From the NCBI RefSeq assembly GCF_900109195.1, contig NZ_FNZG01000004.1:62001-126000 (forward strand): a DNA stretch of 64,000 nucleotides. The letters run 5' to 3'. Shown here in pieces: positions 37,040-50,793 of this stretch (the first letter of the stretch is position 1; every line of letters begins with the position of its first letter). The notes below the pieces were generated by a model. It was given only the letters and a program-made list of their open reading frames with translations, searched no databases and was not told the DNA's origin. Made by a program: the position numbers and the translations under genes. Source of the DNA: Pseudooceanicola nitratireducens (GTDB lineage: Bacteria; Pseudomonadota; Alphaproteobacteria; Rhodobacterales; Rhodobacteraceae).

Positions 37040-37199
37040 AGACACTTCCGAAACATTCCACCTTGAGCATAAGGTATTTTTTCCGAAACGGAAGCGATTA
37101 ACTCCGGTCAGGCGGGGAAGTGATGGAAACTTGTCCTATCGCATCCCGAATGGGGTGACACAGGGCGCTGAATGGGCGGGTCGGAGGGGGGAGTGAAGT

Positions 37200-37533
37200 G
37201 CAGGTTTCTGTTGCCAGGTACCTGCGAACCCCGCCTTACACTGCTAGGCGCAAGGACTTAGATTTCGATTCCTCGAACTGCTTACGCAGCCAGAGCAACC
37301 GGAGCACGATTGTCGTTTGCAATTGTACTTGTTGAACCGATAACGGTGGTATCTCACCGAGACAAAGCAAACCCCTTTAGACGTCCGTCGATCCTATTTC
37401 GGCCCCCCGGTTCCGAATGCAGCCCCAAACGAAGGTTGCCGCCGGAAAGAGTTTGGTGGAGCCGCCGGGTACCGCCCCCGGGTCCGATCCGCTTATTACG
37501 AGCGCGTTTATGTCCATAGTCGGTTGCCCGACA
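37200..37533 (-). ncRNA. ssrA: tmRNA (ssrA), circularly permuted two-piece type
   Basis: The minus strand encodes a permuted tmRNA. First comes the acceptor piece, about 37533 to 37454, ending CGGCTCC-ACCA, then a 47-base intervening segment (37453-37407), then the coding piece starting GGGGCCG at 37406. The acceptor stem pairs GGGGCCG with CGGCTCC over seven positions and includes the G3-U alanine identity pair. ATCGACGG follows the 5' end as in other tmRNAs. The tag frame (37320-37282) reads ANDNRAPVALAA-stop. It rescues stalled ribosomes in trans-translation. Hairpin GTCGG-GCAA-CCGAC (37519-37532) lies in the acceptor piece. The 3' end of the coding piece is approximate. Confidence 0.95.
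37282..37320 (-). other. ssrA tag reading frame
   Basis: Twelve codons and a TAA encode ANDNRAPVALAA, giving a tag of (A)ANDNRAPVALAA after the alanine of tmRNA. The C-terminal LAA is the ClpX signal, and the ANDN part is the SspB-binding region. Confidence 0.95.
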
Positions 37534-37538
37534 GGGAA

Positions 37539-37567
37539 GATATAGGGGGGCTGGTGCGGGATTTCAA
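37539..37567 (-). promoter_or_regulatory. Sigma-70 promoter of ssrA
   Basis: On the minus strand TTGAAA (37567-37562) and TATATC (37544-37539) are separated by 17 bases. Transcription would start near 37532, right at the acceptor piece, which fits the gene's order. Confidence 0.7.
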
Positions 37568-37641
37568 CGGCGGAATTGGGGGCGCTGCCCCCAGGCGGCG
37601 GGGCCGCCTTCCCCCGGGATATTTAAGAAAACTAAAGAGGA

Positions 37642-47767: not shown

Positions 47768-49585
47768 CTATTCGGGGGTCATCCACCAGACCTCGGGCAG
47801 GAAATAGACCGAGTCCCCATACAAAGGCGGATGATCGCGTCGGTAGTCAAGCCGCGCGTCATGGGCAATGCGTCCGACGTCGTAATTGTGGATCGGAATG
47901 ACATAGCGCCCGGCGGTCAACAGCCGATCCAGGGCGCGGGTTGCGGCGGTGAAATCCTCGGCGCTGGTGGCGTTCAGCATGGCGTCGATCGTGGCGTCGA
48001 TGGCGGGGCTGTCGATGCCGATGATATTGCGGGTGCCGGGCTGCCGGGCCACGTCCGATCCCCAATAGGTGCGCTGATCATTGCCGGGCGACAGGGAAAA
48101 CTGCCGCCGGATGTCGGTCATGTCGAAATCCAGGTTGGTCAGGCGCAGCTGGTACTGGGCGTTGTCCACGACCTCTTGCCGGACCTGCATGCCCAGACGC
48201 TCCAGCGCCTTGATGTACAGATCCGCGATGGTCTGCAGCTGCGGCTGGCTTTGCGGCAGCAGGATGGTGAAGGCAAAGGGCTGACCTTCGGCGTTGCGCA
48301 GCTGGCCGTCCTGCACGGTCCAGCCGGCATCTTCAAGCAGGGCCACGGCCTTGCGGATGTTGCGCCGGTTGCGCGGCGATCCGTCTGAGACGGGCAGGGC
48401 GTAGCCCGCCATCGCGCCGGGGGGCAGGTCGGTCAGGGTGCCAAGGATCTCGGCCACGCGGCCCTGGGCGGGGCCGTCCTGCATCCCCAACTCACTGCCC
48501 GAGAAATAGGATGTGATGCGCCCCTGACGCCCGCCGGTCAGGGTTTCGTTGATATATTCGAAGTTGAAGGCATGCAGCATGGCATCGCGCACGCGAATGT
48601 CGTCAAAAGGCGCGCGGCGGGTGTTCATGGCAAAACCGGTGATCCCCGAGGGGCGGCCTGAGGGGATCTCGCTCAGCACGATGTCGCCATCGCGCACAGC
48701 GGGGAAGCCATAGTCGCGGGCCCATTTCTCGGCGTTGAATTCACGGTAATAGCTGATTTCGCCGCCCTTGAAGGATTCGAACAGCACCGCGCCATCGCCG
48801 TAGAATTCGATCTCGATCGTGTCAAAGTTGTTGGTGCCGCGCCGGATCGGCAGATCCTTGCCCCAGTAGTCAGGGTTGCGGGTCAGCGTGACCGACCGGG
48901 CCGGTTCGAAATCGCTGACCACATAGGGGGCAGAGCCGATCGGCGCTTCTTCGAGGCTGAGCGAGGTAAAGGCGCGATCGGCAAATTGCGCCTTCTTCAG
49001 GATCGGCCGCAACCCGATGATCAGCGCCAATTCGCGGTCAAGCTTGTTGAAGGTGAACCGGACGGACCGAGGGCCGGTCTGTTCCATCTTCTCGACCAGG
49101 GTCCACATGCCGCGATAGCGCGCGTTGCCTTCGGTGCCCAGGGTCTCATAGCTCCACATCACGTCTTCGATGGTGACGGGGCTGCCGTCGGAAAACCGGG
49201 CCTCTTCTCGCAGGGTGAATTCCACCCAGGACCGGTCGGGCGCGGTTTCAATCGATTCGGCCAAAAGACCATACAGACCGAAGGGTTCGTCCTGGTTCCG
49301 GTACATCAGGCTTTCCGAGATCAGGAAGCGCAGCTGCCAGGGCGGGTTGCCGGTGATGACGTAGGGATTGAGGCTGTCAAAGGCGCCTTCGTTGCCGCTG
49401 ACCAGCTTTCCGCCCTTGGGCGCGTCGGGGTCGACGTAAGGCAGGGCTGTGAAATCTGCGGGAAGCGCCGGTTCACCATACATTGCGATTCCGTGCGCGG
49501 GCTGGGCCTGTGCGGGGGCGGAAAACAGGGCCGTGGCCAGCAGGGCCAGACTTGCCAGGGGCTGCATGAAAAAATCTGACCTCAT
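47768..49585 (-). CDS. Periplasmic peptide/oligopeptide-binding protein of an ABC transporter
   Basis: The 605-residue secreted protein has a signal peptide of about 27 residues (MRSDFFMQPLASLALLATAL, cut after AQAQ) and the SBP_bac_5 pattern, with MYGEPALPADFTALPYVDPD and GGKLVSGNEGAFDSLNPY, resembling YejA-type proteins. ILLPQSQPQLQTIADLYIKA and NYDVGRIAHDARL follow later. No permease or ATPase genes adjoin it, so it is an orphan unless its partners lie elsewhere. It is divergent from the small RNA candidate at 49700-49775. Confidence 0.9.
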   Translation of the reverse strand: MRSDFFMQPLASLALLATALFSAPAQAQPAHGIAMYGEPALPADFTALPYVDPDAPKGGKLVSGNEGAFDSLNPYVITGNPPWQLRFLISESLMYRNQDEPFGLYGLLAESIETAPDRSWVEFTLREEARFSDGSPVTIEDVMWSYETLGTEGNARYRGMWTLVEKMEQTGPRSVRFTFNKLDRELALIIGLRPILKKAQFADRAFTSLSLEEAPIGSAPYVVSDFEPARSVTLTRNPDYWGKDLPIRRGTNNFDTIEIEFYGDGAVLFESFKGGEISYYREFNAEKWARDYGFPAVRDGDIVLSEIPSGRPSGITGFAMNTRRAPFDDIRVRDAMLHAFNFEYINETLTGGRQGRITSYFSGSELGMQDGPAQGRVAEILGTLTDLPPGAMAGYALPVSDGSPRNRRNIRKAVALLEDAGWTVQDGQLRNAEGQPFAFTILLPQSQPQLQTIADLYIKALERLGMQVRQEVVDNAQYQLRLTNLDFDMTDIRRQFSLSPGNDQRTYWGSDVARQPGTRNIIGIDSPAIDATIDAMLNATSAEDFTAATRALDRLLTAGRYVIPIHNYDVGRIAHDARLDYRRDHPPLYGDSVYFLPEVWWMTPE

Positions 49586-49664
49586 TTTGGCAACAATCCC
49601 CGTTTCGCCTGTGTTTGTTGGCCGGGACCGTAGCTAGGCTTTTGCGTCTTATCAAACTTTTAGC

Positions 49665-49693
49665 TTGGAACGCGGCGATGGATTGCTTATAAA
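49665..49693 (+). promoter_or_regulatory. Promoter of the small RNA candidate
   Basis: TTGGAA (49665-49670) and TATAAA (49688-49693) are separated by exactly 17 bases, which is the strongest sigma-70-type promoter in the intergenic region. Initiation would be near 49700. Confidence 0.6.
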
Positions 49694-49699
49694 GGGGTC

Positions 49700-49775
49700 A
49701 CTGCTCGATAGGTTTCTTGCCTGTATGAAACCTGCCTCAATAACTTAACGCCGGCTTCGTGCCGGCGTTTTTTTT
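49700..49775 (+). ncRNA. Candidate small regulatory RNA (about 76 nt)
   Basis: A promoter, two stem-loops and a strong terminator are packed into about 110 bases with no protein frame of note. Hairpin one pairs AGGTTTC (49710-49716) with GAAACCT (49727-49733), a perfect 7-bp stem with a 10-base loop. A single-stranded GCCTCAATAACTTAA stretch follows. The terminator is a 7-bp stem, CGCCGGC and GCCGGCG, with a TTCGT loop and eight T residues. The only open frame, MKPASIT, has no ribosome-binding site. I recognise no known RNA family. It is divergent from the peptide-binding protein gene. Confidence 0.6.
49749..49775 (+). terminator. Rho-independent terminator with TTCG-type loop
   Basis: CGCCGGC (49749-49755), TTCGT loop and GCCGGCG (49761-49767) are followed by eight T residues. 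It terminates plus-strand transcription, and its orientation shows that a transcript is expected on plus although no plus-strand gene precedes it. Confidence 0.9.
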
Positions 49776-50019: not shown

Positions 50020-50793
50020 ATGTCTGTTGAAGGTAAAACCGTCGTCGTCACCGGATCGAACTCTGGTATCGGTCTGGGTGTGGCGCGGGCATTCGCCGGG
50101 GCCGGCGCCAAGGTTGTTCTGAACTCTTTCACCGATCGCGACGAAGACCACGACCTTGCCGCCGATCTGGCCAAGGAATTCGGAACCGAGGTCCGCTATA
50201 TCCAGGCGGACATGTCCAAGGGTGACGACGCCCGCGCGCTGATCGAAAAGGCCGGGGTTTGCGATATCCTGGTGAACAACGCCGGGATCCAACATGTGGC
50301 ACCGATTGACGAATTCCCGGTGGACAAGTGGAACGCGATCATCGCGATCAACATGTCCTCGGCCTTCCATACGACTGCCGCGGCGCTGCCGATGATGCGC
50401 AAGGCCGGCTGGGGCCGGGTGATTAACGTGGCCTCGGCCCATGGGCTGCGGGCCTCGCCCTTCAAATCGGCCTATGTGACGGCCAAGCACGGCATCGTCG
50501 GCATGACCAAGACCGTCGCGCTGGAAACCGCAAAAGAGGCGATCACCTGCAACGCGATCTGCCCCGGCTACGTGCTGACACCGCTGGTCGAGGCGCAGAT
50601 CCCCGATACCGCCAAGGAATACGACATGTCCGAGGATGAGGTGATCGAGAAGGTGATCCTGGCCAAGCAGCCGTCCAAGGAGTTTGTCACCGTCGAACAG
50701 CTGGGCGACATGGCGTTGTTCCTGGCGTCCGACGCCGCCGCACAGCTGACCGGACAGGCGATCGCCATGGACGGGGGCTGGACGGCGGCCTGA
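50020..50793 (+). CDS. bdhA: 3-hydroxybutyrate dehydrogenase
   Basis: The enzyme interconverts 3-hydroxybutyrate and acetoacetate with NAD, in the use of polyhydroxybutyrate. The 257-residue short-chain dehydrogenase starts MSVEGKTVVVTGSNSGIGLG behind AAAGGA. It has the dinucleotide motif TGSNSGIG near residue 14, the catalytic serine in NVASAHGL, and Tyr/Lys in AYVTAKHG near 153-157. The C-terminal VTVEQLGDMALFLASDAAAQ is typical of the BdhA group. The next gene is a patatin-like lipase, a recurrent pairing in alphaproteobacteria. Confidence 0.92.
   Translation: MSVEGKTVVVTGSNSGIGLGVARAFAGAGAKVVLNSFTDRDEDHDLAADLAKEFGTEVRYIQADMSKGDDARALIEKAGVCDILVNNAGIQHVAPIDEFPVDKWNAIIAINMSSAFHTTAAALPMMRKAGWGRVINVASAHGLRASPFKSAYVTAKHGIVGMTKTVALETAKEAITCNAICPGYVLTPLVEAQIPDTAKEYDMSEDEVIEKVILAKQPSKEFVTVEQLGDMALFLASDAAAQLTGQAIAMDGGWTAA

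Follow-up and report, generated by a model that had tools for sequence, protein, structure and literature searches.

A nearly unchanging small RNA of the Rhodobacteraceae that probably acts on the dcw leader and UpsM

The stretch of DNA analysed here (the window; 64,000 nucleotides from Pseudooceanicola nitratireducens) contains, at positions 49700-49775, what is almost certainly a real small RNA gene. Sequence comparison supports a free-standing gene whose promoter and terminator are its own. The RNA has a conserved complementary site in the leader of mraZ and the dcw genes, with which it very probably pairs. Taken as a whole, the proposal that this family-wide small RNA acts on the dcw leader and on UpsM, an RNA derived from that leader, is considered probable. 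The organization of the locus is as follows, in coordinates of the window.

49653-49668, plus strand: upstream element CAAACTTTTAGCTTGG, which overlaps the -35 box; 78-95% identity at -47 to -39 across 172 loci.
49665-49670, plus strand: -35 box TTGGAA, read directly; TTG with 17-nt spacing in 142 of 172 loci.
49688-49693, plus strand: -10 box TATAAA, found in 98 of 172 loci, with TAT (at -12) in 162.
49700-49775, plus strand: small RNA gene with a predicted 76-nt transcript; found in 390 of 390 family genomes, with invariance from 49700.
49701-49707, plus strand: possible second pairing stretch, nt 2-8 of the RNA, CTGCTCG; complement CGAGCAG in 44 of 58 mraZ leaders.
49710-49733, plus strand: hairpin 1, 7 bp with a 10-nt loop, formed by AGGTTTC (49710-49716) and GAAACCT (49727-49733); read directly and predicted by folding.
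49718-49735, plus strand: predicted pairing stretch, nt 19-36 of the RNA, complementary to the dcw/mraZ leader in the leader complementarity tests.
49749-49775, plus strand: Rho-independent terminator, stem and eight T residues, from a terminator scan; two-sided changes in 7 of 8 stem pairs.
47768-49585, minus strand: divergent neighbour, solute-binding protein family 5 (PF00496, 224 bits); in place at 164 of 176 loci, several of which end too early to judge.
50020-50793, plus strand: downstream neighbour, 3-hydroxybutyrate dehydrogenase (TIGR01963, 368.9 bits against a cut-off of 307.05); in place at 139 of the same 176 loci, with the same reservation.

Direct reading bore out the architecture described in the original prediction, which had been made from the sequence alone: TTGGAA and TATAAA boxes separated by a 17-nt spacer, a perfect 7-bp hairpin and a 7-bp TTCG-type terminator with eight T residues (49768-49775), with no plus-strand gene ahead of that terminator, the preceding gene lying on the minus strand. 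The terminator stem joins CGCCGGC (49749-49755) to GCCGGCG (49761-49767) across the five-base loop TTCGT and reaches 9 bp if two A-T pairs are counted. The predicted +1 is A49700, the A of ACTGCTCG, which sits six bases past the -10 box; conservation begins at this base, in agreement with the proposed transcript of ∼76 nt. By pattern alone, the promoter and terminator are not beyond chance: the rule of the promoter scan, which requires T at the sixth -10 base, listed no promoter at the locus, and terminator-like sites numbered 4, compared with 3.3 (sd 1.7) in shuffles. The fold and the conservation are beyond chance. None of 200 shuffles was as stable as the folded RNA (-26.3 kcal/mol; z = -4.78). 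The TTG and TAT boxes are compatible with the minimum promoter requirement for RpoHI/RpoHII, as given in the accessible excerpts of PMC10673084, and also with sigma-70. The upstream element CAAACTTTTAGCTTGG, which looks like a regulator site, has a single occurrence in the own genome when up to two mismatches are allowed.

A 201-base query matched 59 of 60 family genomes, the sole one without a match (G054) being 74% complete; among 40 genomes that belong to other families of the class it matched none. With up to eight candidates scored per genome, 58 of the 59 had one match each; in G030 the second match was a 24-base fragment from the terminator end. The RNA was also found in 124 of 125 genomes of the genus taken for Paracoccus, as well as in all 390 genomes of a further sample of the order that covered 139 genera, for which only two candidates were scored per genome. 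At least seven of these 390 showed a second match to the query (G243, G320, G377, G415, G481, G558 and G569). Outside the family, a covariance model applied to 385 genomes of the class, with strict filters and 12 candidates scored per genome, gave nine matches, five of which were in family genomes; the other four, at ∼29 bits, were plain terminators by eye.

Across 172 loci, the 40 bases from A49700 are nearly unchanging, whereas the six bases before them and the promoter spacer are variable. Since 113 of these loci were chosen with a pattern over nt 13-40, and the other 59 by whole-region similarity, nt 13-40 are not independent evidence in the 113. The first 12 nt, which lie outside the selection pattern, are identical in all 113, and the exact 40-mer is present in 55 of the 59. 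In a set of 38 genera with one locus each, none picked by pattern, the exact 40-mer occurs in 34, mean identity is 0.994 and 32 of the 40 columns are invariant. For comparison, tmRNA from 29 family loci (of 30, one of odd length having been dropped) gave a best 40-column block with a mean of 0.983 and at most 35 invariant columns in 40, which puts the conservation of the first 40 nt of the small RNA about level with that of the best tmRNA block. An ordinary alphaproteobacterial tmRNA lies within the window itself, at 37197-37571 on the minus strand.

Compensating changes had been proposed as a check on both stems. In the terminator, the letters of the stem change while pairing is kept, with changes on both sides in 7 of 8 pairs, and the stem and T run are retained in 61 aligned relatives. 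Hairpin 1 showed no compensating change; its pairs are constant in 60 of 61 sequences, with one broken in L060. Given that this hairpin hardly varies, covariation neither supports nor contradicts it. Promoter and stems, whose absence from relatives was to count against the gene, are conserved there.

The leader site turned up unsought. A scan of 1.51 Mb from the own genome for exact antisense matches of at least 11 bases gave nine, compared with 10.9 in shuffles, and as a whole thus showed no excess. One of the nine (L286 12206) lies ∼220 nt upstream of mraZ (MraZ PF02381, 47.8 bits). By eye, this own-genome site pairs colinearly with nt 19-38 of the small RNA at 18 of 20 positions and, with two internal mismatches, is among the weaker ones. 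When 27 leaders were scored, namely those of 30 fetched mraZ loci in which the motif that served to locate the gene was present, the mean best complementarity score was 16.2, as against 8.1 in shuffles (sd 0.45; maximum of 300, 10.24), with 26 of the 27 scoring at least 13. After the addition of 30 more genomes, 58 full leaders of 700 nt gave a mean of 15.4 versus 8.45 (sd 0.36; maximum of 40 shuffles, 9.17). A score of at least 12 was reached in 53 of these 58, every site falling 196-279 nt upstream, or in 54 when L408 is included, the contig of which ends early and the site of which was taken from the 27-leader comparison. The 232-nt leader L388 also has the site; L440 has only 87 nt. The stretch of the small RNA involved is mostly nt 19-36, which comprises the loop of hairpin 1, its 3′ arm and two further bases.

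Four of the 58 full leaders (G035, G050, G029 and G930) have no site. When each small RNA was scored against the leader of its own genome, 31 of 35 genomes beat all 200 shuffles. The exceptions were G048 (14.0) and G050 (12.3), for each of which 2 of 200 shuffles scored as high, G035 (25 of 200) and G029 (44 of 200). Both G035 and G029 keep the exact 40-mer in the absence of a leader site; thus, pairing with the dcw leader alone fails to explain the invariance of the RNA. In G050 (L060, L386), the most diverged small RNA seen accompanies a diverged leader, and the 5′ end of the RNA pairs with it at the score of 12.3 given above, reached in 10 of 2000 shuffles, which is no more than a hint that RNA and leader may have changed together.

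Predicted dimer folds for five genomes opened hairpin 1 with a gain of 17.5 to 23.3 kcal/mol. Two other results tell against the proposal. In the folds predicted for 51 leaders, the unpaired share of the site averages 58%, and substitutions within the site, counted over 55 leaders in which a few placements may be chance, showed no bias towards preserving pairing through G-U (11 of 70, compared with an expected one in six). The heptamer CGAGCAG, complementary to nt 2-8 of the small RNA, occurs ∼50 nt downstream of the site in 24 of the 27 and 44 of the 58 leaders, with 2.7 expected in shuffles of the latter; it forms part of a hairpin predicted in the leader, and its conservation may have other reasons. 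Downstream of the pairing site, mraZ leaders (e.g. L286 12240-12300) share a strongly conserved predicted hairpin that contains GAGCAGACATCCCCCCAGGTGG. The original prediction had called a base-pairing regulator plausible. Given the conserved complementary site in the mraZ leaders, such a role now appears more than plausible, and the RNA fits the kind known as trans-encoded base-pairing small RNAs in its apparent promoter, terminator and conserved distant complementarity. The exposed stretch first proposed for pairing, GCCTCAATAACTTAA, fared less well: its first six bases are conserved and the rest are not, and the conserved pairing stretch is instead nt 19-36.

Genome G312, which we take to be R. 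sphaeroides 2.4.1, allows the site to be placed on a characterized RNA. According to the accessible excerpts of PMC5089854, UpsM is a small RNA of R. sphaeroides that arises from the mraZ 5′ leader by partial termination: a 268-nt leader carries a terminator that yields the 206-nt UpsM, RNase E generates a 130-nt 3′ fragment from it in a cleavage that requires Hfq, and a partner of UpsM under RpoHI/RpoHII control was inferred by those authors. The same excerpts describe the long terminated leader as exclusive to the Rhodobacteraceae, a range that the small RNA matches. Excerpts of PMC8307010, PMC11354728 and PMC8625941 describe StsR (RSs0827), an orphan 72-nt small RNA of R. sphaeroides whose targets are UpsM and the dcw 5′ UTR and whose action is followed by RNase E cleavage; cleavage of UpsM is attributed there to StsR, and the RNA of 49700-49775 is not named in those excerpts. 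On UpsM as numbered in G312, the site of the present RNA spans nt 55-72 and ends 4 nt before nt 77, where the 130-nt fragment is computed to begin. Since the numbering rests on the sizes excerpted from PMC5089854 and on our choice of the G312 terminator as anchor for the 206 nt, an error of a few bases in these positions is likely. The StsR-complementary sequence GGGACAGTGAA lies at UpsM nt 14-24 in G312, and StsR-complementary GGACAGTGAA was found in 1 of 60 leaders, compared with 54 of 58 for the site of the present RNA.

From the position of the site, the dimer folds and CGAGCAG, we infer a mechanism of pairing-guided RNase E cleavage with lower dcw read-through, towards which we lean slightly. 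The small RNA is presumably expressed and, given a leader partly terminated to UpsM, would meet both UpsM and the dcw mRNA. Hfq would assist pairing, hairpin 1 would open upon it and the duplex would mark the leader for an RNase E cut just 3′ of the paired region, such that a high level of the small RNA would lower read-through into dcw. A broader reading, close to evenly balanced but on the side of doubt, is that cell division throughout the Rhodobacteraceae is subject to an ancestral RNA brake, in which the nearly invariant RNA grips a fixed site in the dcw leader, possibly with a second contact between nt 2-8 and CGAGCAG, and would direct an RNase E cut beside the duplex, the pairing of StsR being a late, lineage-specific addition.

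Other candidate targets were sought with the same measure. Across 1255 gene starts, placed by a crude ORF picker in 37% of one genome, there was no clear excess of scores of at least 9 (41 versus 27.9; 15 of 200 shuffles had as many), and scores of at least 12 numbered 3 versus 0.8 (9 of 200). The best of these starts, regA/prrA (13.9), was rejected, as 31 of 500 shuffles had a maximum as high; in 24 relatives, five of 30 loci being unusable, regA gave no sign (6.52 versus 6.40). In the own genome, the regA/prrA ribosome-binding site (L294 17353, minus strand) can form 15 contiguous pairs, G-U included, with nt 7-21 of the RNA. The start of the solute-binding gene gave 6.61 versus 6.27 (165 loci; 22 of 200 shuffles as high) and that of 3-hydroxybutyrate dehydrogenase 6.94 versus 6.34 (140 loci; 10 of 200), each at most a weak signal; these two and regA served as controls for the leader score. 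A match to the start codon of repC of RepABC plasmids was discarded, being present in full in 2 of 10 plasmid repC regions drawn from 69 records with a match. Two repC starts of the own genome are complementary to the RNA (L193 2917-2931, 14/15; L198 3074-3088, 13/15).

The main rival reverses the direction of control, such that UpsM is a sponge that restrains the small RNA, the real targets of which are other mRNAs. The location of the site inside UpsM in G312 is compatible with this, as is the description of UpsM as the most abundant small RNA in exponential phase (excerpts of PMC11354728); the two genomes that lack a leader site yet retain the exact 40-mer point to further targets, and the dehydrogenase (bdhA) start scores slightly above shuffles. 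Against these points, no other conserved target was found among the solute-binding gene, regA and the 1255 gene starts covered in 37% of one genome, and we regard the reversed direction as unlikely. An identity with StsR by descent is far less probable still. Such an orthology would account for the similar size (72 and 76 nt), the shared target molecule and the orphan gene, but the complement of the StsR probe printed in the excerpts of PMC11354728 is absent from 49700-49775. In the ∼400 kb of G312 that were searched, it occurs once, at ∼858 kb (C4), in a different RNA with its own terminator, and G312 carries the present RNA as well (E = 4.7e-30). The complementary positions on UpsM also differ (nt 14-24 for StsR; nt 55-72 here). 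The orthology is thus refuted unless the printed probe or the assignment of G312 is wrong.

The neighbourhood of the gene raises the further question of whether the RNA is a cis-acting leader or attenuator of the 3-hydroxybutyrate dehydrogenase gene, which follows on the same strand at most loci (139 of 176); mmgR-type small RNAs are known to regulate PHB. The distance to that gene varies from ∼100 to >2000 nt, the terminator is retained among the aligned relatives and the crude ORF picker places the following gene on the opposite strand at up to 23 of 152 loci, of which L010, L074, L129 and L167 are real by eye. As the RNA persists where a different gene follows, a leader of the dehydrogenase gene is very unlikely. 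The notion that the RNA encodes the tiny peptide MKPASIT deserves the least credence. The near constancy of ATGAAACCTGCCTCA would suit it, but in 75 of 172 loci no stop codon occurs before the end of the RNA, peptide lengths and ends differ, and the ATG at 49726 has no visible ribosome-binding site, as was originally noted for this seven-codon frame.

Should the RNA act on the dcw leader as proposed, it would give a direct handle on why a long terminated leader precedes the division genes in the Rhodobacteraceae, theirs alone according to the excerpts of PMC5089854, and its site would offer a reason for the location of the known UpsM cut. A nearly unchanging, family-wide RNA with a conserved leader site also reduces the problem to a single gene and a single site in many tractable species. 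If the ancestral-brake reading is true, the switch is much older than the pairing of StsR in R. sphaeroides; if the direction is reversed, UpsM would act as a sponge for a regulator of great age, an outcome at least as interesting.

The RNA belongs to no Rfam family at cut-off, and the original failure to recognise a family is thereby upheld. The best sub-threshold match was BjrC1505 (RF02356; 28.3 bits against a gathering score of 50). The mmgR/suhB family (RF00519; 23.5 bits against 41) shares a single 5′ hairpin, a C/U-rich linker and a strong terminator with the present RNA, and separate suhB RNAs of >60 bits exist in G022, G025, G029, G036 and G038, all of which carry the present RNA too. 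SorX (RF02784; 22.3 bits against 46.6) resembles it in hairpin, linker, terminator and occurrence in the Rhodobacteraceae, and the own genome has two SorX-family RNAs elsewhere (L349 and L350; 79.1 and 50.8 bits). By the title of the SorX paper, SorX is reportedly cut from an mRNA 3′ end; this processing contrasts with the apparent promoter of the RNA at 49700-49775. A literature search by topic and short strings of the RNA, with subscription journals mostly outside its reach, gave no paper recognisably about this RNA, and among the matches listed for the short strings no title concerned its family. Abundant intergenic RNAs of 78-84 nt in Paracoccus denitrificans (Intergenic 60, 28 and 134; excerpts of PMC5107571), which have relatives in Rhodobacteraceae, are similar in kind, and one of them may be the same RNA. 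The nearest functional counterpart is StsR, which shares complementarity to UpsM and the dcw leader with the present RNA, computed for the latter and at another site, and which differs from it in sequence and locus.
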